64,000 nt of DNA, taken from a virus. The notes beneath the pieces are model-generated. The model was not told where the DNA came from and did not search any database. It worked only from the letters and a program-made list of their open reading frames with translations. Below are positions 41,782 through 64,000 of this stretch, piece by piece; within the stretch, counting starts at the first letter, position 1, and each line of letters begins with the position of its first letter. Position numbers and translations under genes: made by a program. Location: positions 1 through 64,000 of the IMG/VR virus record IMGVR_UViG_3300008117_000076; one strand, given 5' to 3'.

Positions 41782-44700
41782 ATGGCCAGAATATATTCAC
41801 AAGCTGCACAAACAGCAGCTTCAGGATCCCCTCTAACTGCATACAGTAGTCGTACTTCCGTAAGTGTTAGTGTTACGGCGGGTAAACGCTATGCGATATT
41901 CTGGTCAGCAATAATGAGTCATAGTGCGTTAACTTCTCGTGCGCGCGTTCGACTACAAAACGTTACTAATGGAGTAACATTACAGCAATTTGAATTTGAA
42001 CCACAAGACTTAACGGACAGAATGAGTGCAGTGGATGTAAACGTATTTACTGCTTCATCTACTACAACAATTGAATTTGCTATACAATGGAGTGCATCCG
42101 CCGGTACTGCTACCATTTCTGACGCGTATATTAATGTGTTAGAATTAGATGATGCTGACGTTTCTTCATATGATAGCACACAAATTGCTACAACAAATGC
42201 CGTAGCTACTCCAATAGATTCTATTAATATTCCTGCTGGCGAATGGTTTGTGTTTGGATCGTGTAACGTCAATACTCCACGAACGGCACAAGCAGCGGAT
42301 GATATGGTTGTACAATTGTCTGACGGCACAAACACCTATATGGTACGAACACAGTATTATGCAAAAGATACATTAGGAATAACACCATATTTTGCAATCG
42401 TAACGGCTTCTCTTGGTGCAACAACAACGTTTTCACTAGAACATAGCTCACCAAACGGACAAAATATTGTCAATCAATATCGAACATTATTAGCATTAGA
42501 CAGGTCTAAATTTGCAGAAACGTATGCCGCGGTCAGTGAATCTGCACAAATAGACTCTACAAGTGCCGGTGCACCAACCGCCATAATAACATATACGCCA
42601 ACTATTGCAAACACAGGCAATCATTTAGTGGTGGGTACGTGGACGACAAAAATTAGCGCAACTAACTCATCAGTCTTTTCTCACTTTGGTACTTCAACTA
42701 CGGAACCTGGTCAATATACAGCAACCCGCCAACCACTCCGTGAAGCATCCGTTAATAATATTGACGAATTTGCACACGGATGGACGGACGTTGAATCATT
42801 AACTGCGGGGTCGATTACAAAAGTCATCGCATGGCGTCCAGAAGCAAACGTAAATGCGACAATTTCTGATGCAGCCATTGTTATTATGGATTTGGATGGT
42901 GCCGTTGCTGCACCGAGTCCAACGCCAACTACAACACCAACACCAACACCAACACCGTCTATTACTGTAACACCATCTATTACCACTACACCAAGTATAA
43001 CTGTTACCCCTAGTATTACTACAACGCCTAGTATTACAACAACGCCTAGTATTACCACCACCCCAAGTATTACGCCATCTATTACGACCACACCGTCTAT
43101 TACTACTACACCGAGTGTTACTACAACGCCGAGTATTACTAGAACTCCAAGTATTACCACTACGCCTTCTATTACCACTACACCATCTATTACTGTAACA
43201 CCGTCTATCACAACAACGCCGTCAATTACTATTACGCCAAGTATAACACCATCTATTACAGTCACACCATCTATTACCACAACGCCGAGTATTACTACCA
43301 CGCCGAGTATTACGCCAAGTATTACTACAACACCGTCTATTACTACCACGCCTAGTATTACTACTACCCCAAGTGTCACACCTTCCATTACCACAACACC
43401 AAGTATTACGACTACTCCGAGTATTACTACAACACCCAGCGTTACTAATACACCGTCTATTACTAGAACTCCAAGTATTACTACTACGCCTTCTATTACC
43501 ACTACTCCAAGTATTACGACTACCCCAAGTATTACTGTAACGCCATCTATTACTAGAACGCCATCTATTACTACAACGCCTAGTATTACTACTACACCAA
43601 GTGTCACACCTTCCATTACCACTACACCATCTATTACCACTACACCATCTATTACTACAACCCCAAGTATTACTACTACCCCAAGTATTACTACTACCCC
43701 AAGTATTACTACTACCCCAAGTATCACCACAACACCAAGTATTACACCCAGTATTACTACTACACCATCTATTACTACAACGCCAAGTATCACTACCACT
43801 CCTAGTGTCACGCCAAGTATTACCGTTACGCCATCTATTACCACTACACCAAGTATTACTACTACTCCGTCAATTACAACTACTCCGAGTATTACCACAA
43901 CACCGTCTATTACGGTAACGCCTTCTATTACCACTACGCCGTCAATTACCACTACTCCAAGTGTCACGCCATCTATTACCACCACGCCTAGTATTACTAC
44001 TACACCTAGCGTCACGCCTAGTATTACTACTACGCCAAGCGTTACAACTACTCCAAGCGTTACGCCATCAATAACCACTACGCCGAGTATTACTACTACA
44101 CCATCTGTTACCACTACGCCGAGTATTACTACTACCCCAAGTATTACTACTACGCCGTCAATTACTACCACACCAAGTATAACACCATCGGTTACAGTTA
44201 CACCATCTATTACAGTCACACCATCTATTACAACAACACCATCGGTCACTGCTACGCCATCGGTTACCGTTACGCCTTCTATTACTGCTACGCCATCTGT
44301 TACTAGAACACCTAGCGTTACACCATCAATAACGGTAACACCAAGTATAACAACTACGCCAAGTATTACTACTACGCCAAGTATCACGCCAAGTATTACT
44401 ACTACACCATCTGTTACTACTACGCCGTCTATTACTACTACTCCAAGTATTACGCCGTCGGTTACAATTACGCCAAGTATTACTACAACACCGAGTATCA
44501 CACCTTCTATTACTACAACACCATCTGTTACGGCTACGCCAAGTATTACTACAACGCCATCTATCACCACAACTCCAAGTGTAACAGTTACACCAAGTAT
44601 TACAGCTTCACCTGGTGTATCTGTAACTCCATCAATAACTGTAACTCCATCAATAACCACAACACCTTCTATTACACCAAGTATTACAGTAAGTCCTAGT

Positions 44701-46854: not shown

Positions 46855-46859
46855 AATTC

Positions 46860-46868
46860 ATATTTATA
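46860..46868 (+). promoter_or_regulatory. Candidate late promoter ATATTTATA
   Basis: The element lies six bases after the stop of the first giant repeat gene and 26 bases before the GTG at 46895; it would serve the second mucin cassette. Confidence 0.5.
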
Positions 46869-46894
46869 TGAAATGTATAACGTGAGGTGTATTC

Positions 46895-47410
46895 GTGGCT
46901 GAGACAAGACTTTCTGGCGCATTAATAAGAACTGGAACGAATATCGGACCTGTGAACAAACTATCAGTTGGAGATGTGACCACACCAAGTGGTTCTCTTC
47001 ATGTTGGCGGTACGACAGTTCTACAACAAATATTAGAAAAAAATACTATTGCTGCGACTGCGGCAACGGGGACAATTAATTTTAATGTATTATCACAAGG
47101 GGTGTTGTATTATACAACTAACTCATCGGGTAACTGGACTCTAAACTTTACAGGTGACATTTCGACTACATTAAATGATATAATGTATATTGGGCAAAGT
47201 TTGAGTTTGGCGTTTTTAGTAACGAACGGTTCTCCCGCATTTTATGTCACATCTCATACAATTGATGGTGCTTCTGTAACACCAAAATGGCAAGGTGGTG
47301 CTGTTCCCTCAGCGGGTAACACAAATTGTATTGATGTGTATTCGTATGTTATAATAAAAACAGCAAATGCTACATTTACTGTGTTAGCATCAGTAATACC
47401 TTTCGTTTAA
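46895..47410 (+). CDS. Free-standing beta-domain virion protein (copy of the end of the 2666 protein)
   Basis: The start is a GTG with GAGGTG upstream. Of its 171 residues, the last 130 match the C-terminal domain of the 2666-5290 protein: [42 protein letters not shown] and KTANATFTV in the same order. The N-terminal 40 residues differ. The next gene is again a mucin-like protein, ten bases downstream. The domain may be a fibre cap or attachment unit that works with the repeat protein. Confidence 0.75.
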   Translation: MAETRLSGALIRTGTNIGPVNKLSVGDVTTPSGSLHVGGTTVLQQILEKNTIAATAATGTINFNVLSQGVLYYTTNSSGNWTLNFTGDISTTLNDIMYIGQSLSLAFLVTNGSPAFYVTSHTIDGASVTPKWQGGAVPSAGNTNCIDVYSYVIIKTANATFTVLASVIPFV

Positions 47411-47419
47411 TAAGATTGT

Positions 47420-50400
47420 ATGACTCCGGTACTTGGTGCACGAGGTGGTGCTAGTGTTAGGTCGTTTGGTTTATTTGGGGCAATAACACCAACGCCTACG
47501 CCTTCAATTACTCGTACTCCATCGGTTACACCAAGTATTACTCCGTCGAGAAGCGTAACGCCTAGTATTACACCATCAATCACAATTACGCCAAGTATTA
47601 CGCCTTCTATTACTAGAACGCCAAGTATTACTCCGTCAATAACAGTAACAACTACACCTAGTGTTACTAACACCCCTTCAATTACGATAACTCCGTCTAT
47701 TACTGCTACTACTACGCCAAGTATTACAGTTACACCTTCTATTACTATTACACCATCTATTACAACTACGCCAAGTATTACTAGAACGCCATCTATTACG
47801 ACTACGCCATCAATTACTATCACCCCAAGTATTACTAGAACGCCTTCTATTACGACTACACCAAGCGTAACTAAAACGCCAAGTATTACTACTACGCCGT
47901 CTATTACCACTACGCCGTCTATTACCACTACGCCAAGTATTACGCCAAGTATTACTGTTACACCATCTATTACTAAAACGCCAAGTATTACGCCAAGTAT
48001 TACCATTACACCATCTATTACTAAAACACCTTCTATTACTACAACACCGAGTGTTACCAGAACGCCATCTATTACGGTAACCCCAAGTATCACACCTTCT
48101 ATTACTACAACGCCAAGCGTAACAACTACGCCAAGTGTTACACCATCTATTACCACTACACCGTCTATCACAACTACTCCAAGTATTACTACAACGCCGT
48201 CTATTACAACTACCCCTAGTGTTACCACGACGCCAAGCGTTACGCCATCTATTACTACCACTCCTAGTATTACCAGAACACCAAGTATTACTACCACGCC
48301 TTCTATTACTACAACACCAAGTGTTACCAAAACACCATCTATTACTACTACGCCAAGTATTACTACCACGCCTTCTATTACGACTACACCATCTATTACT
48401 ACTACGCCAAGTATTACTCCAAGTATTACACCGTCAATTACCACTACGCCGTCTATTACCACTACGCCGTCTATTACCACTACGCCGTCTATTACCACAA
48501 CACCGTCAGTTACAACTACTCCAAGTATTACAGTTACACCATCTATTACTAAAACGCCAAGTATTACGCCAAGTATTACGTCTTCGCCGGGGATTAGTGT
48601 AACCCCAAGTATTACGGTAACACCGTCTATTACTACTACGCCTTCTATTACAAAAACACCGAGTGTTACGGTAACGCCTTCTATTACTACTACGCCGTCT
48701 ATTACCACAACACCGAGTATTACTCCATCAATTACAACTACGCCTTCTATTACCACAACACCATCTGTTACAAATACACCAAGTATCACTACAACACCAT
48801 CAGTAACTACTACACCGTCTATCACCACCACGCCTAGTGTTACTACCACACCAAGTATTACTCCATCTATTACCACTACACCATCTATTACTACCACACC
48901 AAGTATTACCAAAACGCCTTCTATTACAACTACGCCTTCTATTACTACAACGCCAAGTATTACCAAAACGCCTTCTATTACGACTACACCAAGTATTACG
49001 GTAACGCCGTCTATTACTACCACGCCATCAGTAACTACTACACCATCTATTACAACTACACCAAGTATTACGCCAAGTATTACGACAACGCCTTCTATTA
49101 CTACTACACCATCTATTACAAGAACGCCAAGTATTACTACTACGCCTTCTATTACTAAAACGCCGAGTATTACGATAACGCCTTCTATTACAAGAACGCC
49201 TAGTGTTACGGTAACGCCTTCTATCACAACTACACCAAGCATTACACCATCCATTACGACTACTCCATCTATTACCACCACACCAAGTATTACCACTACG
49301 CCTTCTATTACTACTACGCCCAGTATTACGCCGTCTATTACCACTACGCCGTCTATTACCAGAACGCCGTCTATTACGACTACGCCAAGTATTACGCCAA
49401 GTATTACGATAACGCCTTCTGTCACTACAACACCAAGTATTACTACAACGCCTTCTGTTACTATTACGCCTAGTATTACACCATCTATTACCACTACGCC
49501 TTCTATTACTAGAACCCCGAGTATTACTACTACACCGTCTATTACTGTTACGCCAAGTATTACTCCATCAATTACAACTACGCCATCTATTACTAAAACG
49601 CCAAGTATTACTACCACACCGTCTATTACAACCACACCTTCCGTAACTAGAACGCCAAGTATTACCACTACGCCTTCTATTACCAGAACGCCGTCTATTA
49701 CTACAACACCTAGCATTACACCTTCTATTACCATTACGCCAAGTATTACTACAACACCAAGTGTAACTCCGTCTATTACCACCACACCATCTATTACGAC
49801 TACACCAAGTATTACTACAACACCGTCTATTACAACTACACCAAGTATTACTCCATCTATTACAACTACACCAAGTATTACAAAAACGCCTTCTATTACT
49901 AGAACCCCAAGTATTACCACTACACCAAGTATTACAACAACGCCAAGTATTACTAAAACGCCGTCAATTACTACTACACCTTCTATCACTACAACGCCAA
50001 GTATTACTACAACGCCAAGTATTACTCCAAGTATTACTAAAACGCCTTCTATTACTACAACGCCAAGTATTACTACAACGCCGAGTATTACCGTAACGCC
50101 AAGTATTACTCCATCAATTACAACTACGCCATCTATTACTAAAACGCCAAGTATTACCGTTACACCATCTGTTACCATCACACCATCTATTACTACTACT
50201 CCTAGTATTACCAGAACACCAAGTATTACGACAACGCCTTCTATTACTACAACGCCTTCTATTACTACAACGCCGAGTATTACTCCAAGTATTACGGTAA
50301 CGCCTTCTATTACTACAACGCCTTCTATTACGAAAACGCCGAGTGTTACTACAACGCCAAGTATTACTACTACACCGTCTATTACTAGAACGCCAAGCGT

Positions 50401-52069: not shown

Positions 52070-52102
52070 AAATAACGGTAACTTAAAATTTAGAGAATAA
52101 AT

Positions 52103-52534: not shown

Positions 52535-52539
52535 TAAAC

Positions 52540-52558
52540 CTTGACTTGTTAAGTCGAG
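52540..52558 (+). terminator. Weak candidate terminator before the glycan cassette
   Basis: CTTGACTT and AAGTCGAG form an eight-base stem with one G-T pair and a three-base loop, followed shortly by an AT-rich stretch with TTTTT. It is less convincing than the hairpins after capsid and tube genes. Confidence 0.4.
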
Positions 52559-52586
52559 TAGATTATATTTTTCTATTGACGTAAAC

Positions 52587-52594
52587 TATTTATA
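52587..52594 (+). promoter_or_regulatory. Candidate late promoter (CTATTTATA context)
   Basis: TATTTATA matches the core of the recurrent element and lies 31 bases before the ATG of the first glycosyltransferase gene. It is the only such element seen in a gap within the last 11 kb, so it may serve the whole glycan operon. Confidence 0.45.
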
Positions 52595-52625
52595 CTTGTG
52601 TACAGGTTATATAAATGAGGGTTTT

Positions 52626-53945
52626 ATGACTACAAAAAAGAAAGTTGTTAAAAAGACTGTAAGAAATCAGAGTATAAAAAAGACTGCTGGACGAGTTAAA
52701 AAGAAAGTACCTACTATTTTCGTTCAAATTGCAGCATACCGTGATCCAGAATTATTACACACTCTTCGCAGTTTATTACAAAACGCAGATCATCCAGAAA
52801 ATTTGACTATTGCCATTGGTTGGCAGCATTCTCCCTATGAGAAGTGGGATAATTTAGATGAGTTCAAAGATGACACAAGATTTAAGATAATAGATATAGA
52901 TTATCGTAAATCTAAAGGTGTTTGCTGGATGCGTGAAAAAATACAGAAATTGTATAATGGCGAAACTTATACACTACAACTAGATTCACATCATAGATTT
53001 ACCGAACATTGGGATACGCAAGTAATAGAAATGTTAGAAGGATTGCGTAGTAAAGGACACACAAAACCACTGCTGAGTTCATACTTACCAGATTTTAATC
53101 CAGTAACAGGACCTGAAGGTGAATTACCTGCTCCGTGGATTATGGAATTTGACAGATTTGGTCCAGAAGGGCCAGTACACTTCTTACCACATACAATAGA
53201 CGATTGGAGAGAACTGACATCACCAGTTCCATCAAGATTCATGTCTGGTCATTTTATATTTGCTGACGGAATATTTGTTAAAGAAGTTCCGTATGACCCA
53301 AATTATTATTTTCACGGTGAAGAAATTGATTTATCTGTTCGTTCTTATATGGCGGGGTACGATCTATTCGCACCACACAGAACTATTGCTTGGCACGAAT
53401 ACTATAGAGAAGGAAAGAGTAAACATTGGGAGGACCATACAAATTGGGCATCAGAAGATAGAATCTCACACGCATATCATCGCAAAATGTACGGTATTGA
53501 ATCGAAGAACAGAAAATTAAAAGATAATGTACGAACACTTCAGGAATATGAAATGTATGCTGGATTGGAGTTTTCTACAAAACGTGCTCATACGATGACC
53601 ATACAAAAAATACGCCCTCCAGTTTCTTTAGATGTAGAATCCCATACACAAGGATTGGTTCCTTATCATAAAGTATGTATTGATGTGTATAAAGGATCAT
53701 TACCAGAGAAGGATTATAATTTCTGGGTAGTTGCGTTTACAAATAAAGATGGAATAGAATTTCATAGACATGATGCTGATGAAAATGAAATAAATATGGC
53801 TATGAGTGTACCTTATGAAGCAGATAAGTTTGTGCATATATGGAGAGCATTCTATTCTGATCAACCAGCTGATGGGTGGATCGTGTGGCCTCATAGTAAG
53901 AGTAATGGGTGGTGTGAAAGATTAACTGGTAAATTTGGACGATAA
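52626..53945 (+). CDS. GT60-like glycosyltransferase (polypeptide GlcNAc-transferase family), copy 1
   Basis: I start at the ATG at 52626 with GAGGG upstream; a TTG at 52596 lies in the promoter region. The 439-residue product has a Lys-rich N-terminus and then a domain with IFVQIAAYRDPELLHTL, NLTIAIGWQHS, TLQLDSHHRF (a DxH/DxD-like metal site) and YFHGEEIDLSVRSY. This is the pattern of the GlcNAc family (Pfam GlcNAc, CAZy GT60), whose eukaryotic members add GlcNAc to hydroxyproline or Thr of proteins. The C-terminal 110 residues (FWVVAFTNKDG, WIVWPHSKSNGWCERL) form a second domain shared with the next gene. The acceptor is unknown. Confidence 0.8.
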   Translation: MTTKKKVVKKTVRNQSIKKTAGRVKKKVPTIFVQIAAYRDPELLHTLRSLLQNADHPENLTIAIGWQHSPYEKWDNLDEFKDDTRFKIIDIDYRKSKGVCWMREKIQKLYNGETYTLQLDSHHRFTEHWDTQVIEMLEGLRSKGHTKPLLSSYLPDFNPVTGPEGELPAPWIMEFDRFGPEGPVHFLPHTIDDWRELTSPVPSRFMSGHFIFADGIFVKEVPYDPNYYFHGEEIDLSVRSYMAGYDLFAPHRTIAWHEYYREGKSKHWEDHTNWASEDRISHAYHRKMYGIESKNRKLKDNVRTLQEYEMYAGLEFSTKRAHTMTIQKIRPPVSLDVESHTQGLVPYHKVCIDVYKGSLPEKDYNFWVVAFTNKDGIEFHRHDADENEINMAMSVPYEADKFVHIWRAFYSDQPADGWIVWPHSKSNGWCERLTGKFGR

Positions 53946-53946
53946 T

Positions 53947-55188
53947 ATGAGAAAAAATAAAAATATTTTCGTTCAAATTGCAGCATACCGTGATCCAGAA
54001 TTACTACCCACTATTCGTGATTGTATATCCAATGCGAAGAACCCGGAAAATCTTCGATTCTGTATTGCGTGGCAGCATTCTAACGAAGATGTCTGGGACA
54101 ATTTAGATGAGTTTAAAAACGATTCACGATTTATAATTCTAGATATTCCACATCTACAGACAAAAGGAACGTGTTGGGCACGGTATCAAATCCAACAACA
54201 TTGGAACGGAGAAGCATATACCCTACAATTAGATTCACATCATCGTTTTGCTAAAAATTGGGATAGTATGCTAATTAAGATGGTCAAAGATTTACAAAAA
54301 GCAGGATATAAAAAACCATTATTGACTGCATATATGTCAAGTTATGAACCACATAACGATCCCACGGGACGAGCACCAGACCCGTGGTTCTTAACATTTG
54401 ACAGATTCACTCCAGCTGGAGCAGTATTTTTTATACCCGCTGTTATTCCTGATTGGAAAAATCGTAAATTACCATATCCAAGTAGATTTTATTCCGCTCA
54501 TTTTGGATTCACACTTGGACAATTTTGTAAAGAAGTTCCTCACGATCCGAACTACTTGTTTCACGGTGAGGAAATTTCTATTGCCGCACGAGCGTATACG
54601 TGGGGATATGATTTGTTTGCGGCACATAAACCTGTAGTGTGGCACGAATATTCACGAAATCACCGCCCTCGTAAATCGTGGGACGACATATCAGATTGGA
54701 CTAATTGGGATAATCAATCGTTGGCACGTAACAGAAGATTGTTAAACGTGGATAACGAGAATGACCCTAATGAAGATTTTGGAGAATTTGGATTTGGTAC
54801 ACAACGTACACTACAGCAGTACGAAGAATATGCGGGAATACAATTTTCTACAAGAAGTATACAAAAACATACGTTAGAACATCGTGAACCACCCAACCCG
54901 CCAAATCAACCATTCTTTAGAATTTTTAAACATTGTATTGATTTACCATATCAATATGTACCGTATAATGACTATGATTTTTGGGCGGTAGCATTTGAAG
55001 ATGAATTTGGTAACGAGATATATAGACACGATGCTACAGAAGATGATATCATACAAATGAAGAATGATCCTGACGGATATTGTAAATTGTGGAGACAGTT
55101 TCACGCAACGGCAAAACCCGCCAGATGGATTGTTTGGCCACATTCTAAATCACACGGATGGTGTGATCGATTGGTTGGAGATATCTAA
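53947..55188 (+). CDS. GT60-like glycosyltransferase, copy 2
   Basis: The 413-residue tandem paralogue starts one base after copy 1. It repeats all key segments: IFVQIAAYRDPELLPTI, NLRFCIAWQHS, TLQLDSHHRF, LFHGEEISIAARAYTWG and C-terminal FWAVAFEDEFG with WIVWPHSKSHGWCDRL. The shared C-terminal extension is not part of the minimal GT60 domain as I know it and may bind the acceptor. Two diverged copies suggest two acceptor or donor specificities. Confidence 0.8.
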   Translation: MRKNKNIFVQIAAYRDPELLPTIRDCISNAKNPENLRFCIAWQHSNEDVWDNLDEFKNDSRFIILDIPHLQTKGTCWARYQIQQHWNGEAYTLQLDSHHRFAKNWDSMLIKMVKDLQKAGYKKPLLTAYMSSYEPHNDPTGRAPDPWFLTFDRFTPAGAVFFIPAVIPDWKNRKLPYPSRFYSAHFGFTLGQFCKEVPHDPNYLFHGEEISIAARAYTWGYDLFAAHKPVVWHEYSRNHRPRKSWDDISDWTNWDNQSLARNRRLLNVDNENDPNEDFGEFGFGTQRTLQQYEEYAGIQFSTRSIQKHTLEHREPPNPPNQPFFRIFKHCIDLPYQYVPYNDYDFWAVAFEDEFGNEIYRHDATEDDIIQMKNDPDGYCKLWRQFHATAKPARWIVWPHSKSHGWCDRLVGDI

Positions 55189-55189
55189 A

Positions 55190-56149
55190 ATGCAGCACAA
55201 AACAAAATTACGTATTCATAATTCCTGCAACAAGTACACTAGGTATTATAGATATTATAATTTTTTTTGGGATGCTTTGACTTACGAGTTAGGTAAAACG
55301 TTTGAAATTGAAGAAAACAGATATTTCGAACATGCCCATACAATACCAATGCCAATAAAACTCAAAAAGGCAAAATGTGATTTAGAAATTTATGAATCAG
55401 ACTACGTTATAGAAAACGTAGAATCGGGTGACTTCTATATATTGACAGCGTGTGATGTATTGACCGGACACGTAATAGCTGAAAGAGAGAATCCACACTT
55501 AAAAAAAGTATTGGTGGCACAGTACATAGACCAAATTATTAAACACAACGTAGAAAATCCACATACCAGTAAATATTCCCCATGGATTTATTTTCAAAGT
55601 GGATTGACTAATTTAGAAGAATATTTTTATAAAAGAAAGTTAATACTCAATTTTAATAAAAAATTATACTTTCGTGGTAAAATTGATGACCGTCCTATTT
55701 TAAAGTACTTTTCTCCATCTATCTTGGAATCAGGCCAAACAATTAATCAAAATGATTATTTCAACGAAGCAATTAATCACGAAATCGGATTATCCATAGG
55801 CGGTGTTGGTGAGTTGTGTTATAGAGATATTGAATATATGGGAATGGGTATACCGTTTTTGCGTTTTGAATTCGCTAGCAGTCTTAAAGAACCATTAATT
55901 CCAAATGTACACTATATTTCAGTAGATAGGCCGAATGACTTACCAACAGAACAACGTACTTGTGGTGTTGGATTAGATAGGATGGGATTAGAACATCACG
56001 CAAAGTTAATAGAGCAACGTTATTTAGAAGTAATAGATGACAAAGAATTTTTAAGATTTGTATCTACTAATGCAAGAGAGTATTATGAAAAATATCTTAT
56101 GTATCCGAACAATGTAAGACACACAATTAATTGGTTGGGGTTAGAATAA
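55190..56149 (+). CDS. Probable glycosyltransferase of exostosin-like type
   Basis: The ATG at 55190 has GGAG upstream; earlier in-frame starts lie inside the previous gene. The 319-residue product ends with a GT-B-like element: LSIGGVGELCYRDIEYMGMG, IPFLRF and LIPNVHYISVD, the pattern seen where exostosin-like enzymes bind the nucleotide sugar. The N-terminal half is not recognisable. The call rests on this element plus the surrounding glycan genes. Confidence 0.5.
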   Translation: MQHKTKLRIHNSCNKYTRYYRYYNFFWDALTYELGKTFEIEENRYFEHAHTIPMPIKLKKAKCDLEIYESDYVIENVESGDFYILTACDVLTGHVIAERENPHLKKVLVAQYIDQIIKHNVENPHTSKYSPWIYFQSGLTNLEEYFYKRKLILNFNKKLYFRGKIDDRPILKYFSPSILESGQTINQNDYFNEAINHEIGLSIGGVGELCYRDIEYMGMGIPFLRFEFASSLKEPLIPNVHYISVDRPNDLPTEQRTCGVGLDRMGLEHHAKLIEQRYLEVIDDKEFLRFVSTNAREYYEKYLMYPNNVRHTINWLGLE

Positions 56150-56150
56150 T

Positions 56151-57068
56151 ATGAGAATTTTAGTAACAGGTGGAACTGGGTTGGTTGGAGAAAACTTGAA
56201 ACAATCTCTTCCTGACGCATATTATGTTTCTTCAAAGGATTACGATTTAACTAGTTACGAAGATACTGCGGCGTTGTTTTATTACTATCGACCAACGCAC
56301 GTTATCCATTTAGCTTCTAAAGTAGGTGGCATAACGTATAATATGAAATACCCAGTAGAGTTTTTTGAAGATAATGTGTTGATGAACGCAAATGTACTAA
56401 ACTGTGCTCATAAATTTAAAGTGCAAAACTTAATTGGAATGTTGTCCACTTGTATATTCCCAGATGATGTGACGTATCCTCTAACGCCTGATAAAATTCA
56501 TAAGGGTGAACCACATCATAGCAACTTTGGATATGCTTATGCAAAACGCATGTTAGAAGTTCAAATACGAACATATAATAAACAATACGGAACAGATTGG
56601 ACCACGATTATCCCAACAAATATTTATGGCAAATATGATCAATTTAATCTTGAAAAATCTCATGTAATTCCTGCGTTAATTCATAAGATGTATTTGAATA
56701 AAATAAATAATCAACCATTGATGAATATGATGGGTACTGGATTGGCAGAACGGGAATTTATATACGCTGAAGATTTAGGGAAAATATTAGCGTGGGCTAT
56801 AGAAAATTACACAACACCAACACCATTAATAGTTTCATCAGAAACATCATATAGTATAAAATCGGTAGCAGAGCTAATTTCTAATGCTATAGGTTATGAG
56901 GGACAATTACTATTTGACGGAGATGTGTCAAAAGACGGACAATACAGAAAGCCAAGCGATTCCAATGTGGTTAGAACACTTTGTCCAATAGAATATACTC
57001 CTCTAGATGTTGGTATAAAAAATACCGTAGAGTGGTTTGTAGAAAATTACACTAACTGTAGGAAGTAA
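56151..57068 (+). CDS. fcl: GDP-L-fucose synthase (GDP-4-keto-6-deoxymannose epimerase/reductase)
   Basis: The 305-residue short-chain dehydrogenase-like enzyme makes GDP-L-fucose from GDP-4-keto-6-deoxymannose using NADPH. The coenzyme motif GGTGLVG is at residues 7-13; S99, C101, Y128, K132 and H171 occupy the positions of the E. coli residues S107, C109, Y136, K140 and H179 with a constant offset of eight. HLASKVGGI and SHVIPALI are also typical. All catalytic residues are present, so the enzyme should be active. GDP-mannose dehydratase, the preceding step, is not in the window. Confidence 0.92.
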   Translation: MRILVTGGTGLVGENLKQSLPDAYYVSSKDYDLTSYEDTAALFYYYRPTHVIHLASKVGGITYNMKYPVEFFEDNVLMNANVLNCAHKFKVQNLIGMLSTCIFPDDVTYPLTPDKIHKGEPHHSNFGYAYAKRMLEVQIRTYNKQYGTDWTTIIPTNIYGKYDQFNLEKSHVIPALIHKMYLNKINNQPLMNMMGTGLAEREFIYAEDLGKILAWAIENYTTPTPLIVSSETSYSIKSVAELISNAIGYEGQLLFDGDVSKDGQYRKPSDSNVVRTLCPIEYTPLDVGIKNTVEWFVENYTNCRK

Positions 57069-57071
57069 AAT

Positions 57072-57869
57072 ATGAAAATACTAGTATCTACTATATGTTT
57101 TATTCAACCCAATAAAATTAAGGATGGTGCAGAGATATATGCAACGTTTGCCAATCGTTTGATAGATTCTACGATGGAAAAAACGAATTTTGATATTCGA
57201 GTAGCAACAAACAGACCAGAACTGTTTTCCGACGCATTATTAAAATATGGTGACAGAGTTTCTTTATTTGTAGACACGTTGGAAGATAAACAGGTTTGGG
57301 TTGGTGCATTCAATCAATTACTAAAATTTTTAGCACTAAAAGATGTACCATCGAAATACGATTATGTTCTGTATTTAGATTGCGATTCATCATTCTTTAA
57401 AACAGTTGATAATGAATTGGTAACAGAAACAATTACCAAACTAGAAGAAAACAACCAAAACGGCATGGTAAATAGATCTGGTACGGGATACTTCCTGCAA
57501 CAGTTAACAGAACATTGTTCAGGCATAGCAAATATGTTTAGCGCCAAATTTAATTTTTATAACTTAAACTTGAATACCGTACCACCGGAGTGGGAAGATG
57601 CTCCAATGCCATGTGAACACATACTGTTCTTAAAGAATGAAGATAATAAATTACAGATTATGTCAGATAAAATTGCTGAATTTAATGAAAAATTAGAATC
57701 TCAAATTGGACAACCGTACATCGCATGTAGTCCTGATATGGAAGCATTCGAGTTGGGTATTGGGGTAAAAGTTGCTGGTTATAAATTAGCAGAAATTGAT
57801 TCATATATTCACCACGATGTATTTTGTGTAAAATATAACGGTAGTAATTGGGAAAAAGCAAAATTATAA
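57072..57869 (+). CDS. GT-A type glycosyltransferase-like protein
   Basis: The 265-residue product has YDYVLYLDCDSSFF, a DxD metal site following a hydrophobic strand, as in GT6/GT8-like enzymes. Other features are an N-terminal MKILVSTICFI strand and a C-terminal EIDSYIHHDVF segment. The donor and acceptor are unknown. It starts three bases after the fucose-synthase gene. Confidence 0.65.
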   Translation: MKILVSTICFIQPNKIKDGAEIYATFANRLIDSTMEKTNFDIRVATNRPELFSDALLKYGDRVSLFVDTLEDKQVWVGAFNQLLKFLALKDVPSKYDYVLYLDCDSSFFKTVDNELVTETITKLEENNQNGMVNRSGTGYFLQQLTEHCSGIANMFSAKFNFYNLNLNTVPPEWEDAPMPCEHILFLKNEDNKLQIMSDKIAEFNEKLESQIGQPYIACSPDMEAFELGIGVKVAGYKLAEIDSYIHHDVFCVKYNGSNWEKAKL

Positions 57870-57882
57870 AATGAGATAAATT

Positions 57883-58482
57883 ATGTTAAAAACCGATGGA
57901 AATGATTATTATGTAATCAAGGATGCATGTGTTGCTGTAAAGGAAATTGAAGGTTTGGTATGTGAATTAGGATCGTATCAAGGTGGTGGACTCAAATTAC
58001 TTATGGAAACATTTTCGGAAATGAATCAACGAGATAGAATATTTCTTTCGGTTGATCCATACGGAGACATTCCATATCACGATATAAATGGTATACACAG
58101 TGCGGGATATACAAATAATGTAAAAAATATGTTTCTACGAGACATACATCAATTGTCTTATGAATTGAATACATACTTTTTGTTTTTCAATATGACAGAC
58201 ACACAGTTTTTCAAAAGATTTTCTGATGGTATTCCTGTATACATTAACGAAGAACGTATTTATAACAAATATGCGTTAGTAATTATTGACGGACCACATG
58301 AAGTGAATATCGTTAAGGATGAATTTGATTTCTTTAAAAGTAGAATAGCTACAAATGGTATAATAGTTTTTGATGATGTTGAACAGTACCCACATGAAAC
58401 TATTCACGAATATATTTTGCAGAATGGATTTGAAACGTTCAAATCCACAGGATATAAGCACGCATATAAAAAAGTTGTATGA
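57883..58482 (+). CDS. SAM-dependent methyltransferase-like protein (Methyltransf_24/TylF type)
   Basis: The 199-residue product shows VCELGSYQGGGLKLLME (motif I), FLSVDPYGD (acidic end of strand 2), YALVIIDGPHE and IIVFDDVEQYPHE. This order matches sugar O-methyltransferases of the TylF/macrocin type and other Methyltransf_24 proteins. In this operon a sugar methylation role is inferred. It overlaps the next gene by four bases. Confidence 0.7.
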   Translation: MLKTDGNDYYVIKDACVAVKEIEGLVCELGSYQGGGLKLLMETFSEMNQRDRIFLSVDPYGDIPYHDINGIHSAGYTNNVKNMFLRDIHQLSYELNTYFLFFNMTDTQFFKRFSDGIPVYINEERIYNKYALVIIDGPHEVNIVKDEFDFFKSRIATNGIIVFDDVEQYPHETIHEYILQNGFETFKSTGYKHAYKKVV

Positions 58483-59303
58483 AAATTGCACTTCTGCTTT
58501 CAGGTCAACCACGATTATATGAGGAAGTTTTTCCACACATAAAAAAACATATATTAGACGTATATGATTGTGATGTATATGCACATGCGTGGTGGGACGA
58601 AGCGGAATCACACGATGTAGTACATCGTTCACCCTGGTCACAGTCTTATAAGTTTGACGTAGATAAACAATTTCCTATTAAGTTTAATAACTTATACAAT
58701 CCCAAAAAGTTTCAAATAGATAAACCATTATTTGATAGCACGGAAGATTCGCAGAATATTTTCATTGAGTCATTGAAAAAATTGTATCCGACTACAAATG
58801 GGTGTGAAGTTTTTTATGAAGATAAAAGTATGTTAGGTCCAATTCATAAATTTATTTCAATCGAAAAAGTATTTAATATGGTGAATTGGGATGAAAATTA
58901 TGATTGGATTGTTTTCTGGAGATATGATTTACAGCCAGATGTATTTCCCGATTTAACTATCTTAAATGAAGAAGTATTATACGCATATACCGATTATTGG
59001 TGTTCTTGGTGTGATAGAGATGATAGAGCGTGGCCAGATAATCATGGATTTATAGATACTGGATTTATACTACATCCTAATTGTAAACATGCTTTAAATA
59101 TTAAAAATTTTTACTTTGATGAGTGTATGAAAAATAATTTATTGTGTAGTGAATCACACAAATGGAAGCACAAACCAATTCCAGAAACAGTCTGGTCGTT
59201 GAACGTGTGGTACAATAAAATAAAAACAGTTATGTTACCATCTAAAGACTTTTCAGCAAGTTTAATTCGACGAATTGATGAGTACGGAGACTTAAGACCA
59301 TGA
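58479..59303 (+). CDS. Glycan-cluster protein, glycosyltransferase-like
   Basis: The 274-residue product begins MKIALLLSGQPRLYEEVFPH and has DVYAHAWWDEA, then WIVFWRYDLQPDVFPDL. This combination is found in capsule and LPS-cluster proteins that are probably glycosyltransferases. It lacks a clear DxD site, so the function is uncertain. It is joined to both neighbours by ATGA overlaps. Confidence 0.55.
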   Translation: MKIALLLSGQPRLYEEVFPHIKKHILDVYDCDVYAHAWWDEAESHDVVHRSPWSQSYKFDVDKQFPIKFNNLYNPKKFQIDKPLFDSTEDSQNIFIESLKKLYPTTNGCEVFYEDKSMLGPIHKFISIEKVFNMVNWDENYDWIVFWRYDLQPDVFPDLTILNEEVLYAYTDYWCSWCDRDDRAWPDNHGFIDTGFILHPNCKHALNIKNFYFDECMKNNLLCSESHKWKHKPIPETVWSLNVWYNKIKTVMLPSKDFSASLIRRIDEYGDLRP

Positions 59304-59974
59304 ACGAACAATATATATTTTTTGATGTAGGAGCAAATAATGGTGATAGTTCTGTGCCAATTATACGCAAAAATCCAGATGCTAGAGTATATGCATTTGA
59401 ACCTGTTCCTGCTTTAGTGAATTACATAAAACAACAAACAAAAGATTATCCTAACTATGTTGTAACACAAACTGCTGTTTCTGATTTTAATGGAACGGCA
59501 TCATTTCGTATATCAGGCGAACCATCAAAAAAAGAAATTCAAACATTTGTAGATTTAGACTTTCATAAATTCGTGGAACATAATTGGCATGGATGTAGTT
59601 CTTTACTAGAATTGTCGGATAATGTATTGGATTCTTGGTACGGAAGAACGGATATGTTAGTTCTGGAAGAAATAGAAGTTAATGTCATTAGATTGGATTC
59701 TTTTATACAACAAAATAACATAGACCATATTGATTTTCTTTGGGTAGATACACAAGGATCAGATTTAAATGTATTGAAAGGTTTGGGAGACTACATTCAT
59801 ATAGTAAATTCTGGAACGGTAGAAGCTGCAAACAAACCAGACATTTTATATAAAAATCAAAATTCTAAAGAAGAAACAATTGAGTATTTAAAACAATGTG
59901 GATTTAACGATATACGAGTGTCCACGAATGACCCAGCAGATAATGAAGTAAATATTTCTTTTTATAGAGGATAA
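59300..59974 (+). CDS. FkbM-family methyltransferase
   Basis: The 224-residue product has FFDVGANNGDSS (motif I), VYAFEPVPALVNYIK (motif II) and IDFLWVDTQGSDLNVLKG, the hallmark order of FkbM methyltransferases, which mostly methylate sugar hydroxyls. The substrate may be the fucosylated glycan made by its neighbours. It overlaps the previous gene by four bases. Confidence 0.85.
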   Translation: MNEQYIFFDVGANNGDSSVPIIRKNPDARVYAFEPVPALVNYIKQQTKDYPNYVVTQTAVSDFNGTASFRISGEPSKKEIQTFVDLDFHKFVEHNWHGCSSLLELSDNVLDSWYGRTDMLVLEEIEVNVIRLDSFIQQNNIDHIDFLWVDTQGSDLNVLKGLGDYIHIVNSGTVEAANKPDILYKNQNSKEETIEYLKQCGFNDIRVSTNDPADNEVNISFYRG

Positions 59975-59977
59975 GTT

Positions 59978-60859
59978 GTGAAAATTAAATTTCTTCCAAA
60001 CTGGTGTTCTTCTGAACAAGGTACAAAACGATTATTTGACCAATTTTATATAGGACAAGATTTAACAAATGTAGAATTTGTTCACGGTGATGAATTTGAC
60101 GTTATTTTTTATTGCGGATATGAAACGCAAGTCGTACCGTCTGGAATAAAAAAATATATTTTTAATATGGAACCGTGTTGGTCGGGAAACGTACAAAGAA
60201 ACAATTCGGGTATTGATGCTACAATCTTCGCTCAAGATAAAAACATATTTGATGATTCGACTAGAGTAGTTGAGTGTCCAACCTATATGTTCTACGGAGC
60301 TGGTGGCGAAAATTGGACTGTAGAAGATACCAAAATTGATTACGAAAAAACAAAAAATATCAGTTGTATATTGTCGGATAAAAGAAACATTTACAATATA
60401 TCTTCATGTCTATACGATAAACGAGATGATGTAGCTCAATACTTGATGCGTTCGAGTGTATCGGTAGATGTATTCAGAGATTGTGATTCTCCAAATTGCG
60501 TTGGTGGACTCCCAAGAAAAATTGAAGGATTAAAACCATATCGATTTAGTATTGGTATAGAAAACAGTAGAGAACAAAACTACATTTCAGAAAAATTTTA
60601 TGATGCAATTTTAACAAACACCATCCCAATATACTACGGTGCAAAAAATATCAAAGAGGTTTTTCCTGAAAATGGGTATTTTGTAATAGATGATTTAGAA
60701 GATTTAGATGGCATTGCCAACCTACTAAAACATATAAACGAAAACGCAGAAGAACTTTATCGACAAATGTTACCAGAAGCACTAAAAATTAAACAGAGAT
60801 TTTTTAATGAATTTAATCTCATGACAAAAATTATAGAAGTAGCGGAGAGTGGTATATGA
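59978..60859 (+). CDS. GT10-type fucosyltransferase
   Basis: The start is a GTG with AGAGG upstream. The 293-residue product carries the C-terminal GT10 signature at residues 189-226: RFSIGIENS, YISEKFYDA and TIPIYYGAKNI, which binds GDP-fucose in alpha-1,3/1,4-fucosyltransferases. Residues 60-67 (YIFNMEPCW) fit the N-terminal domain. GDP-L-fucose synthase is encoded six genes upstream, so donor and transferase are paired in one operon. The acceptor is unknown. Confidence 0.85.
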   Translation: MKIKFLPNWCSSEQGTKRLFDQFYIGQDLTNVEFVHGDEFDVIFYCGYETQVVPSGIKKYIFNMEPCWSGNVQRNNSGIDATIFAQDKNIFDDSTRVVECPTYMFYGAGGENWTVEDTKIDYEKTKNISCILSDKRNIYNISSCLYDKRDDVAQYLMRSSVSVDVFRDCDSPNCVGGLPRKIEGLKPYRFSIGIENSREQNYISEKFYDAILTNTIPIYYGAKNIKEVFPENGYFVIDDLEDLDGIANLLKHINENAEELYRQMLPEALKIKQRFFNEFNLMTKIIEVAESGI

Positions 60860-61860
60860 AAACTATAGGATTTTGGGATAACAATCTAGGATTGCGTGGT
60901 ACTAGTGTTGCTATGTTTCTTTATGCAAAATATAACGAAGAAATTTTAGGAAATCGTAGTGTCATATATTCACACAGTGCTGTTAGAGAAGATATAGGGG
61001 ATAAGTCTACACTAGATAAATTCGAAAAACAGTTTCCAGGTCGTGTACATCTAGTCGGTAGAGAATTGGGTGGATTGTACGATGTTCAGACGCATATGTT
61101 GAGAGAATATAACGCTGAATATTTTTATTATATTAAAGCCGGACAACGTGATGGTGGTATGTTAGATGAAAATTATATCAAAAATTTAATACACGCAGTA
61201 TTTTTGTTTAATGAACCACACGGACATCGATATATGTATGTGTCTGATTGGTTGGCTGGGACGATGGGATATTCACCTAGAGAAAATCACGCGGTACCTC
61301 ATATCGTTGAACCGTTGCCTGTAGTTGACGAAGATTTAAGAGATGAGCTAGGTATACCAAAAACAGCGACGGTGTTTGGGTGTTATGGTGGTCCAACTGA
61401 ATTTAATATTGATTTTGTACATATGGTGATGGATAGAGTCTTGTCAGAACGTAATGACATTTATTTTATTTTTATGAATATACCAAGTACTCATCGTGGT
61501 ATAACACACACGCATGAAAATTATAGATGGTTGCCTGGTACGTGGGATTTAACTCGAAAGGCTAAGTTTGTTAAAACATGCGATGCTATGTTACACGCCA
61601 GAGGAGGTGGAGAAACGTTCGGAATGGCTGTGGCAGAATTTAGTAGCGCAAATAAACCTGTAATAACATACGGATTATCGGGAGAACGATGTCATCTGGA
61701 AATTTTAGGAGACAAGGGATTAATTTATAACAGTTATGAAGAGCTTTATGACATTATTAATAACCTTGGTACATATTTAAAGTATGAGGATTGGAACTGC
61801 TACAGAAATTTCTCCGCAGAAATTATAATGGACAGATTCAATAAAAACTTTTTAAATTGA
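60856..61860 (+). CDS. GT-B type glycosyltransferase (GT4-like)
   Basis: The 334-residue product has an N-terminal Rossmann-like start (TIGFWDNNLGLRGTSVAMFL) and a C-terminal half with DAMLHARGGGETFGMAVAEF, the Ex7E-type donor-binding element of GT4 enzymes, followed by NKPVITYG. The donor sugar is unknown. It overlaps the fucosyltransferase gene by four bases. Confidence 0.75.
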   Translation: MKTIGFWDNNLGLRGTSVAMFLYAKYNEEILGNRSVIYSHSAVREDIGDKSTLDKFEKQFPGRVHLVGRELGGLYDVQTHMLREYNAEYFYYIKAGQRDGGMLDENYIKNLIHAVFLFNEPHGHRYMYVSDWLAGTMGYSPRENHAVPHIVEPLPVVDEDLRDELGIPKTATVFGCYGGPTEFNIDFVHMVMDRVLSERNDIYFIFMNIPSTHRGITHTHENYRWLPGTWDLTRKAKFVKTCDAMLHARGGGETFGMAVAEFSSANKPVITYGLSGERCHLEILGDKGLIYNSYEELYDIINNLGTYLKYEDWNCYRNFSAEIIMDRFNKNFLN

Positions 61861-61870
61861 GATAATAGAT

Positions 61871-62695
61871 ATGACAAAGGTTATCGTAACAATGACAACG
61901 TTACCTCGAAGATTATTTGAGGTTGATTCTGAATGGGGAATTCGTCCGTCTTTAAAGACGATATTAGAACAATCAAACGCTGACTACGAAGTACATTTAA
62001 ATGTTCCATACGAACACAGAGGTCAGCAAATAACAGTTCCCGATTGGTTAAGAGAATGGCAATCAACATACAAACATTTAAAAGTGTTTAGATGTAAAGA
62101 TTACGGTCCAATAACAAAGATATATCCTACACTAAAACGTGTAACTGATCCGAATACTATTCTTATAACGGTAGACGATGATCTTGCATATAACGATGGA
62201 TTTGTCCAAGCTCACATAGACGCTCAAACGAAGTATAAAGAATGTGCCATAGGATATGCTGGAATGGGTTCTATTAATGAATCACTTCCGGCTGACAATA
62301 GAGGCGTTCATCCAACCGGTGGACAACATTTCGTTACATCGTTAGCGGAAGATATAAGAGTGAGAATGTTAGAGGGATATAAAACTGTGTCTTATTTAAG
62401 ATCATTTTTTTCTGAAGATTTAAAGGATTTAGAAAACTTTATGGCACAACATTGGAATGATGATATTGTGTTGTCTGCTTATATGGGATATAAAAATATA
62501 AAAAAGATAGTGTTGAAGTGTGAAAATTGTAATGGAGACAATTCACCACGCGTAGAAACATTCCCAGTAATAAGAATGGTTCCTATTACGTCCGATATTC
62601 ACGGTTGTAATGCATTTAGAACCAATCAATCTATTCAAAAAAATATGGAAGATGTGAGTAATATGTGGTATAAACTTGGATATCTGGAGAGATAA
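61871..62695 (+). CDS. GT-A type glycosyltransferase-like protein with DDD motif
   Basis: The 274-residue product reads KVIVTMTTLPRRLFE, then KDYGPITKIYPTLK, ILITVDDDLAYNDGFV (a DxD-type metal site) and HWNDDIVLSAYMGYKN. This is the layout of a GT-A glycosyltransferase of bacterial and phage glycan clusters. Cys residues in LKCENCNGD might bind metal. It starts ten bases after the GT-B gene. Confidence 0.7.
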   Translation: MTKVIVTMTTLPRRLFEVDSEWGIRPSLKTILEQSNADYEVHLNVPYEHRGQQITVPDWLREWQSTYKHLKVFRCKDYGPITKIYPTLKRVTDPNTILITVDDDLAYNDGFVQAHIDAQTKYKECAIGYAGMGSINESLPADNRGVHPTGGQHFVTSLAEDIRVRMLEGYKTVSYLRSFFSEDLKDLENFMAQHWNDDIVLSAYMGYKNIKKIVLKCENCNGDNSPRVETFPVIRMVPITSDIHGCNAFRTNQSIQKNMEDVSNMWYKLGYLER

Positions 62696-62698
62696 AAT

Positions 62699-63439
62699 AT
62701 GTCTAATATTATTGAAGCATTAAATGTATACAATGTGTTTTCACCTAAAATGCGTTTGGGTGATAACAGAGATGGTGGTTATATAATTAACGAAACAATT
62801 GCAGAAGTTTCAAATAAACTTATTACTGTTGGATTGGGTTCTGATTACTCTTTTGAAAGAGATTGGTACAATAAATTCAAGACTCCAATTGAAGTATATG
62901 ACGGAACGTGTTCTTGTGGCGGTCTGTGTCACGAATTTAAAGATAATATCAATAAAGATATTTTCTTTATAAAGAATAACGTGGGATATGATGAGGGTAA
63001 TATGCCGATAAACGTATTACTAGATAGAAAATCAGATATTCTGTTGAAAGTTGACGCAGAAGGATCTGAATACACTATGTTTGATAATGTTAAATTGGGT
63101 TCAAATATTGCAGGATTTATCCTAGAAGTACACGATATACACGTTAGAGAGCATCAAGAAAAACTAATCAGTTTGATTGAAAATCAATTTTCTGATCTTT
63201 TGTTGTTTCATATTCACGGTAATTCTTGGGGAAACACCTTTACATTAAATTTGAGTAAAACGGGAAATCGTGGTTTGGAAATACAAAATTTTCCACATGT
63301 ACTCGAATTATCTTTCGTAAACAAAAGACTGCTTGGTAATTTTGAGTTAGAAACGACATCATTCCCAATTCAAGGATTAGACTACAGTAATCACCCAGAT
63401 AAACAAGATATTCAACTTCCGTGGATAAACGCATTATAA
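62699..63439 (+). CDS. FkbM-like methyltransferase, second copy in cluster
   Basis: The 246-residue product has NRDGGYIINE, LITVGLGSDYSFERDW (a motif I-like glycine region) and ILLKVDAEGSEYTMFDNV, the conserved FkbM element. It is more diverged from the consensus than the 59300 gene. A CSCGGLC stretch near residue 72 is unusual. It probably methylates a sugar, inferred from family and context. Confidence 0.7.
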   Translation: MSNIIEALNVYNVFSPKMRLGDNRDGGYIINETIAEVSNKLITVGLGSDYSFERDWYNKFKTPIEVYDGTCSCGGLCHEFKDNINKDIFFIKNNVGYDEGNMPINVLLDRKSDILLKVDAEGSEYTMFDNVKLGSNIAGFILEVHDIHVREHQEKLISLIENQFSDLLLFHIHGNSWGNTFTLNLSKTGNRGLEIQNFPHVLELSFVNKRLLGNFELETTSFPIQGLDYSNHPDKQDIQLPWINAL

Positions 63440-63451
63440 TAAAGGTATTTT

Positions 63452-64000
63452 ATGATAAACTTAAAGGATATATTACAGACTTTATCTGAAGATGGTAAAT
63501 CTTTCGTTATAAATCTCGGAGATAAAGTTTTACGATTCACGATAGACGAGATTCCTAAAACTGAGCAAGAATCTTCACAACAAGTAGACAATACTGTTGA
63601 AGAATTCAAAACTTTAGAAAATTCTGATACGACCATAGTAACCGCTCTTTGGAATTTAGGTAGAGGGTCACTCGGTGATGATTTTAAACGTCCGTATTCT
63701 TATTATCTTGACAAATTTGCAGAGTTACTCAAAACTCCTTCAAATTTATACATTTATGTAGCAAAAGAAGATGAAGAATTTGTTTGGAAGCATAGATCAA
63801 GAAAAAATACTCATGTCAAAGTTATGGAGTTAGAAGAACTAAAAACTTGGTTTCCCTTCTACGAAAAAGTACAAGAAATTAGAAATACTGAAAATTGGAA
63901 GAAACAGGCAGCATGGTTAGAAAACTCTCCACAAGCAAATTTAGAGTTTTATAATCCGGTAGTTATGAGCAAGATGTTTTTACTGAACGATGCATCAATC
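63452..64000 (+). CDS. HtrL/YibB (WlaTC)-like protein, 3' partial
   Basis: The frame opens at 63452 after AAAGG and runs off the right edge, 183 codons visible. The N-terminus (MINLKDILQTLSEDGKS) is short and helical. The domain then gives TIVTALWNLGRGSLGDDFKR, NLYIYVAKEDEEF and AWLENSPQANLEFYNPVVMS, the pattern of the HtrL/YibB family of capsule and LPS clusters, often called putative glycosyltransferases. The C-terminal part is missing from the window. Confidence 0.7.
   Translation, partial: MINLKDILQTLSEDGKSFVINLGDKVLRFTIDEIPKTEQESSQQVDNTVEEFKTLENSDTTIVTALWNLGRGSLGDDFKRPYSYYLDKFAELLKTPSNLYIYVAKEDEEFVWKHRSRKNTHVKVMELEELKTWFPFYEKVQEIRNTENWKKQAAWLENSPQANLEFYNPVVMSKMFLLNDASI

Follow-up and report, generated by a model that had tools for sequence, protein, structure and literature searches.

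A candidate phage gene island for mucin-type O-glycosylation of repetitive stalk proteins

Introduction

Mucin-type O-glycosylation is usually regarded as a eukaryotic speciality. The virus record IMGVR_UViG_3300008117_000076 raises the question of whether a phage could encode such a system. The first 64,000 bases of this 96,739-base record (the window) contain genes for giant stalk proteins with TPSIT repeats, rich in Pro, Thr and Ser (PTS), followed by an operon whose first two products, GT60a and GT60b, are predicted polypeptide N-acetylhexosamine (HexNAc) transferases. We consider it likely that this region serves the phage as a mucin-type O-glycosylation island for making glycosylated stalks. 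This interpretation draws on the conservation of the repeats at the amino acid level, the enzyme families, the predicted fold of GT60b and the recurrence of the gene order in other phages.

Stalk repeats are conserved at the amino acid level

An earlier note on this DNA had described two giant PTS-rich stalk proteins and a third, smaller one, and the list of open reading frames (ORFs) with their translations bears this out (1690, 1549 and 666 amino acids). All three consist largely of mucin-like tandem repeats with a high content of Pro, Thr and Ser, with 199 TPS[IV]T units in the stalk starting at position 41782, 196 in that at 47420 and 65 in that at 5293 (composition 31% T, 20% P and 16% S). 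At the DNA level, these units, chosen by their peptide, correspond to 144, 138 and 51 distinct 18-base words, respectively, and their Ser uses both TCN and AGY codons. In a test that is independent of the peptide, we compared each array with itself shifted by 18 bases. Differences occurred at 21-28% of the first and second codon positions and at 48-51% of the third positions. Because third positions differ about twice as often and the Ser codon families alternate, the peptide is conserved more than the DNA, arguing for selection on the peptide.

The 5293 and 47420 stalks have similar N-terminal heads and near-identical Cys-rich C-termini. Their location beside tail genes suggests that the stalks are virion proteins. 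A fourth TPSIT stalk lies just outside the window. Its PTS frame is lost near the 3' end within TPSPV repeats, and an overlapping frame (4102-4680 of L052, a further stretch of the same record) continues into the Cys-rich end; the frame loss could be due to either slippage or an assembly error. Long open frames also run antiparallel to the giant stalks on the minus strand (42711-46307, 1198 amino acids; 47407-51177, 1256 amino acids), likely as a mechanical effect of the repeats and not as genes.

The predicted fold of GT60b is nearest that of polypeptide GalNAc-transferases

As the earlier note had proposed, the first two enzymes of the operon are GT60-like. Both score far above the cut-off of 21 bits (Table 1) for PF11397, which we take to be the Pfam family of CAZy GT60. 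The likely starts of GT60a, GT60b and the next gene (52626, 53947 and 55190) were chosen by eye. According to the available text of PMC6939170, GT60 includes Skp1 Gnt1 and the Trypanosoma cruzi polypeptide alpha-GlcNAc-transferase, which are peptide alpha-GlcNAc-transferases. The window enzymes differ from eukaryotic GT60s in being phage-encoded, in occurring in pairs or more and in lying beside repetitive genes; their peptide acceptor is predicted.

The structure prediction that had been suggested as a check was run for GT60b. The AlphaFold model, made with 25 aligned sequences, has a predicted local distance difference test score (pLDDT) of 91.9 and a predicted template modeling score (pTM) of 0.88; residues 328-417 make up a distinct, mostly beta portion. 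When 1000 chains were re-aligned to the model, the top 29 matches were all polypeptide GalNAc-transferases (Z 19.4-22.4, root mean square deviation 3.5-4.0 over 265-285 residues, 12-16% identity), followed by SpsA with Z 16.5; Foldseek also placed polypeptide GalNAc-transferases first. The best structural matches are GT-A enzymes, and the model has a GT-A catalytic fold like that of GalNAc-T2. Residues D100-S101-H102 (numbering of the 417-residue form) are invariant across the 25 aligned sequences, and so is H237. We take the D-S-H motif to be metal-binding and equivalent to the metal ligands D224/H226 of GalNAc-T2. Given that the predicted fold is nearest that of polypeptide GalNAc-transferases, a peptide would be a likelier acceptor than a lipid or a polysaccharide.

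GT60b thus resembles the GT27 system of mucin-type O-glycosylation in its predicted fold, in the D-S-H motif and in the Thr/Ser/Pro tandem repeats beside the enzyme. The two differ in sequence, as the low identity above shows, and the system described here is viral and would be cytosolic. Polypeptide GalNAc-transferases typically carry a C-terminal ricin-type lectin domain, and none was found in GT60a or GT60b with Pfam at E values up to 0.1. Neither GT60b nor its profile gave more than chance-level matches when solved structures were searched by sequence. A strongly hydrophobic segment is absent from the four window enzymes that were checked (GT60a, GT60b, the GDP-L-fucose synthase Fcl and a GT10 enzyme).

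Hypermodified phage DNA was also considered as the substrate of the transferases. Phages with DNA glycosyltransferases are known, the window encodes a Mom-like DNA-modification protein (23309-24781, N-terminal part polynucleotide-kinase/HAD-like), and the GT60 part of a 923-residue protein beyond the window has a weak match to TAGT (TET-associated glycosyltransferase) that is below cut-off. GT60a and GT60b themselves match PF11397 and gave no TAGT match at E up to 0.1, and peptide transferases are structurally closest to the GT60b model, which makes action on DNA very improbable.

Stalk and GT60 genes recur together in diverged phages

Relatives of GT60b are present at 43 viral loci, which form 27 clusters at 95% and 20 clusters at 80% identity. 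Using one representative per 80% cluster, we compared the placement of PTS genes with that of the other genes of the same loci by simulation. In 8 of the 20 clusters, which include the window phage, a PTS gene ends at most 2 kb upstream of the first GT60 gene, compared with 1.69 expected (p = 5e-5, the floor of the simulation). The same test on GT60-bearing, dereplicated records that had been found via their PTS repeats, without the window phage and with the region around GT60 limited to 20 kb, gave 9/16 against 1.27 expected, again at p = 5e-5. The recurring order is one or more PTS genes, one or two GT60 genes, varying sugar genes and an HtrL-type enzyme. Homologues of the latter were found in 13/20 clusters and 14/16 further records, and no other partner of GT60 was as common in the islands analyzed. 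The PTS motifs at this position differ among phages (TPTAT, TPTQT, TPSVTVTPS). Since different repeat motifs occupy the same place, the island is not one inherited block. PTS proteins of different phages (loci L198, L200, L258, L266 and L271) have a similar GPFDIYY-like N-terminal motif, perhaps a common attachment domain.

Co-occurrence across phage records, which the earlier note had named as a check, points in the same direction. A TPSIT-type DNA pattern gave at least 119 stretches, of which 80 were analyzed; four of these lie on the same record as another of the 80, leaving 76 records, and long PTS ORFs are present in all 80 loci. As controls, we took 80 of at least 600 relatives of the window phage's major capsid protein and left out 31 on contigs under 15 kb, leaving 49 records. 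PF11397 was detected in 24/76 PTS-repeat records (23/50 and 1/26), compared with 3/49 capsid relatives above the cut-off, or 4/49 at E 0.001. We then removed four PTS records and two capsid records of the window phage and four PTS records judged to be duplicates by their matching scores and places, resulting in 16/68 PTS records versus 2/47 controls (one-sided p = 0.004), in statistics that ignore kinship and include many PTS records that are fragments. On contigs of at least 40 kb, the counts were 11/27 and 2/22 (one-sided p = 0.013). In the reverse direction, with a looser PTS pattern and GT60 clusters on contigs of at least 15 kb, the pattern was present in 8 of 23 non-window GT60 clusters, compared with 4 of 45 capsid relatives that lack GT60 (two-sided p = 0.016). 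The TPSIT pattern itself occurs in 2/49 capsid-relative records, both with the window phage's own capsid; relatives of the window capsid are therefore a weak test.

The GT60 enzymes could also modify another virion protein, for example the capsid or the 1408-residue protein at 37183, with the PTS stalks serving as bare spacers. Several GT60 genes come after large genes that are not PTS-rich, and in mycobacteriophages, phage-encoded transferases place glycans on the C-termini of capsid and tail-tube subunits (Freeman et al. 2023, as cited in the available text of PMC12619734). This alternative seems quite improbable to us, with PTS genes directly upstream of GT60 well over expectation. Moreover, Thr-rich, Pro-flanked repeats are the expected type of substrate of enzymes resembling polypeptide GalNAc-transferases.

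GT60 and HtrL-type enzymes in named phages and bacteria

A search of 50,697 named phage records for GT60 and for the full-length HtrL-type tandem enzyme hit the same three phages in both cases and no others: Xanthomonas phage XacN1 and Stenotrophomonas phages CM1 and RAS14, with one GT60 match each at 41-42% identity. In XacN1, a carbamoyltransferase gene lies between the genes for GT60 and the HtrL-type enzyme. The gene orders of XacN1 and RAS14 are alike, so the three hits probably represent one lineage. Like the window phage, all three have a PTS stretch, of about 60-70 residues or more within the surrounding 31-41 kb; in RAS14 and CM1 it comprises about 70 residues inside a protein of more than 3,000 residues. 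They differ from the window phage in having a single GT60, far shorter PTS stretches and no PTS gene directly beside GT60. Virion glycoproteins have been reported for XacN1 (PMC5852040).

We applied a stricter PTS rule to bacterial GT60 loci, of which there were 63, 10 of them without a recognizable GT60 ORF, leaving 53. In Jiulongibacter sediminis (L278 5987-13184), a PTS ORF is followed by a GT60 gene, and there is a divergent run of GT60, carbamoyltransferase and HtrL genes; this arrangement resembles the phage island. PTS runs near five GT60s of the Burkholderia group consist of PT, TEPP or similar motifs within far longer proteins and were not counted as support.

Several observations weigh against a stalk glycosylation island. 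A PTS gene directly upstream of GT60 is lacking in 12/20 GT60 clusters, and in one cluster, comprising ten loci, that place is taken by large proteins with a merely moderate Thr content. The PTS stretches of XacN1, CM1 and RAS14 are short or not beside GT60, and in the available text of PMC5852040 the XacN1 glycoproteins are not named and the authors observed no tail fibres. At the bacterial loci, PTS genes were not enriched: one within 3 kb was found in 6/53 compared with 5.2 expected (p = 0.36). On contigs of at least 60 kb, the difference in PF11397 between PTS records and controls was not significant (9/18 versus 2/11, one-sided p = 0.09), and the capsid-relative controls were not matched for phage type. 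Half of these long PTS records (9/18) contain no PF11397, suggesting that other phages may leave their stalks bare or use other enzymes. Among the families of the islands described below, PF02719 and GT25 (2 ORFs each) are named for polysaccharide or lipopolysaccharide (LPS) biosynthesis, and ten single-member families stand outside the 25 that were listed. A shared fold alone is no proof of a peptide acceptor, and the glycan on the repeats is a proposal drawn from the genes. Hence, the connection between stalks and enzymes that the earlier note had suggested holds as co-occurrence and synteny across diverged phages and does not hold as a strict pairing.

Sugar genes and the supply of GDP-fucose

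The operon continues downstream of the GT60 genes to the end of the window and beyond (Table 1). The GDP-L-fucose synthase and the GT10 fucosyltransferase named in the earlier note were both recovered. In an alignment of Fcl to the solved enzyme, the S-T-C, Y-x-x-x-K and H-V positions are conserved, which we take to be its catalytic residues; its score with NF047922 (209.5 bits) is under the cut-off of 500. The sugar methyltransferases and other transferases listed with them fared unevenly: the FkbM protein at 59300 and the Methyltransf_24 protein stand, and the FkbM match at 62699, the GT1 match at 60856 and the GT2 match at 61871 are below cut-off.

Table 1. Positions of stalk, glycosylation and marker genes in the window and in L052, a further stretch of the same record.
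Feature	Position	Strand	Evidence and remarks
874 aa protein directly upstream of 5293 stalk	2666..5290	+	C-terminal part matches phrog_5906
TPSIT stalk, 666 aa	5293..7293	+	Short head at the N-terminus, TPSIT repeats followed by TPSPV repeats, Cys-rich C-terminus
Major capsid protein	26248..27840	+	phrog_138, 228 bits; T4-like context; used to choose control records
Tail sheath	30730..33063	+	phrog_23, 240 bits
Giant TPSIT stalk, 1690 aa	41782..46854	+	~380 residues of ordinary sequence at N-terminus
171 aa protein between the giant stalks	46895..47410	+	phrog_5906, 105 bits
Giant TPSIT stalk, 1549 aa	47420..52069	+	
GT60a, predicted polypeptide HexNAc-transferase	52626..53945 (ORF 52596-53945)	+	PF11397, 222 bits; phrog_24687, 475 bits
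GT60b, predicted polypeptide HexNAc-transferase	53947..55188 (ORF 53935-55188)	+	PF11397, 242 bits
Protein with homologues in other GT60 islands	55190..56149	+	Homologues at 26-48%; no family above cut-off, one chance match, E 0.08
GDP-L-fucose synthase (Fcl)	56151..57068	+	291 bits to solved GDP-L-fucose synthase, residues 1-305
Protein with homologues in other islands	57072..57869	+	Homologues at 25-39%; no family match
Methyltransferase (Methyltransf_24, TylF-like)	57883..58482	+	32.5 bits, cut-off 26.3
phrog_13607 protein	58479..59303	+	87.8 bits
FkbM methyltransferase	59300..59974	+	81 bits
GT10 fucosyltransferase-like	59978..60859	+	59.5 bits, cut-off 23.9; model positions 11-132 of 182
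GT4-like glycosyltransferase	60856..61860	+	PF00534, 22.6 bits, below cut-off 26.4; 50-51% homologues in two other islands
GT2-like protein	61871..62695	+	PF00535, 15.6 bits, below cut-off; 27-38% homologues in other islands
FkbM-like methyltransferase	62699..63439	+	PF05050, 16.7 bits, below cut-off 22.7; 25-35% homologues in other islands
Start of HtrL_YibB + GT-A tandem transferase	63452..64000	+	PF09612, 38 bits; runs on to record ~65308
Fourth TPSIT stalk	L052 2723-4483 (record 66,722-68,482)		
GDP-mannose-3,5-epimerase-like protein	L052 4772-5749		308 bits to solved enzyme
923 aa three-domain protein	L052 5724-8495 (record 69,723-72,494)		HPAT-like 27.6 bits (weak, cut-off 23.9); O-FucT 99 bits; PF11397 109 bits
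2OG-Fe(II)-oxygenase-like protein, 176 aa	L052 13323-13853		~30% to cyanophage proteins; HxD and HWR conserved in 5 aligned sequences

A second contig of 166,598 bases is 100% identical to the window phage over 8,679 bases and has the same stalk repeats close to both of its ends. Given this overlap with the record, the genome is probably above 200 kb. The larger contig encodes a GDP-mannose 4,6-dehydratase (Pfam 380.7 bits, cut-off 27; NCBIfam 375.5 bits, under the cut-off of 415). With this enzyme and Fcl, both steps from GDP-mannose to GDP-fucose are phage-encoded, which brings the system close to the self-contained one that had been proposed, short of strict completeness. A second sugar-nucleotide locus on the same contig contains aminotransferase, nucleotidyltransferase and dehydratase genes. 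For the HtrL-type enzyme, we modelled a relative (pLDDT 85.6, pTM 0.55). The model has two tandem domains, and no single family was prominent among its structural matches.

Past the window, the island contains, besides the fourth stalk, two more PF11397 domains, one in the three-domain protein and one in another protein, as well as two carbamoyltransferases and more genes. The hydroxyproline arabinosyltransferase (HPAT), O-FucT and GT60 families, which are combined in the three-domain protein, are best known from eukaryotic protein O-glycosylation; a sequence search at E up to 0.1 found no solved relative of this protein. The GDP-mannose-3,5-epimerase-like enzyme is unexpected for a phage. We also looked for a prolyl hydroxylase of the Skp1 type and found one gene for a 2-oxoglutarate (2OG)-oxygenase-like protein in this phage's island. 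Its cyanophage relatives are named either ferrochelatase or 2OG oxygenase, the former probably a propagated misannotation. The profile of the 176-residue protein matched none of the 185 ORFs (up to 700 amino acids) of other islands at E 0.01, so a hydroxyproline route shows no sign of belonging to the general system.

Island content in other phages was assessed from 125 of these 185 ORFs downstream of GT60, those nearest to it. The commonest Pfam families were HtrL_YibB (16, an undercount due to the exclusion of ORFs over 700 amino acids), GT2 (10), GT10 (7), FkbM (7) and carbamoyltransferase (5); GT34, GT7, GT25, GT11 and a sulfotransferase were rarer. The names of the 25 families listed include no lipid-carrier sugar transferase, flippase, polymerase or oligosaccharyltransferase. 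On balance, this family content favors direct cytosolic transfer to protein, with a glycan that is specific to each phage.

The strongest competing explanation is that the cassette remodels a host surface polysaccharide, capsule or O-antigen, against superinfection and has nothing to do with the adjacent stalks. Jumbo cyanophages have glycosyltransferase clusters that were interpreted as host-surface modification, and a second type of cluster, with carbamoyltransferases and 2OG oxygenases, has been read as capsule decoration or metabolite synthesis (both in the available text of PMC7824862). The carbamoyltransferases, the 2OG-oxygenase-like gene and the second sugar locus of the window phage would fit such a role, and so would the families named for polysaccharide or LPS biosynthesis. 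On the other side, family and fold assign the lead enzymes to the polypeptide-transferase type, GT60 follows PTS genes directly far above expectation, and the names of lipid-carrier transferases, flippases and polymerases are absent from the listed families. Overall, we regard host-surface remodelling as unlikely.

A proposed pathway for stalk glycosylation

In the stalk glycosylation that we favor, Thr/Ser residues of the TPSIT repeats would receive HexNAc (GlcNAc or GalNAc) directly from UDP-HexNAc in the host cytosol, either ahead of virion assembly or in the course of it. This step would be carried out by GT60a and GT60b, which are apparently soluble. Extension of the glycan would fall to the HtrL-type tandem transferase together with phage-specific transferases. 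Its fucose would derive from GDP-fucose that the phage supplies through its GDP-mannose dehydratase and Fcl, and O-methyl and carbamoyl groups may cap the glycan. The products would be stiff, protease-resistant bottlebrush stalks with a variable sugar surface, which might hold the ordinary domains at their head and tip at a distance from the particle. The mimicry of animal glycans and the mucus binding that the earlier note had considered found no support in these results.

PBCV-1 and mimivirus have eukaryotic hosts and use different transferases. The likeness is that the glycan machinery acting on particle proteins comes from the virus itself, as the available text of PMC5852040 describes for the chlorovirus PBCV-1. 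Mycobacteriophages are alike in encoding transferases for virion proteins; their targets in the source cited above are the C-termini of capsid and tail-tube proteins, in contrast to the mucin-like repeat stalks proposed here for an island known so far as a set of genes. In the open-access literature, with subscription journals largely outside, neither GT60 in phages nor a pairing of PTS stalks with transferases appeared in titles or the starts of abstracts among the matches listed.

More broadly, interchangeable PTS stalks, a dedicated GT60 initiator with a fold akin to animal polypeptide GalNAc-transferases, a frequent HtrL-type extender and rapidly exchanged sugar genes may form a widespread, modular phage system of mucin-type O-glycosylation, a viral counterpart of mucins with its own glycan coat in each phage; we see the chances of this generalization as evenly balanced. 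If true, the function of GT60 enzymes outside eukaryotes would become directly testable, the giant PTS proteins in phage metagenomes would be accounted for, and compact enzymes for the production of mucin-like glycoproteins in bacteria would be at hand. The variability of the sugar genes hints at an arms race centred on the sugar coat of virions.

Phage setting

Genes for capsid, terminase, tail sheath and head-tail proteins are present in the window and mark its source, as judged from these genes, as a T4-like contractile-tailed phage. The nearest named relative of the capsid protein is that of Flavobacterium phage immuto (54.5% identity), and the capsid of Microcystis phage Mel-JY01 (50.0% identity) ranks after that of an uncultured phage.

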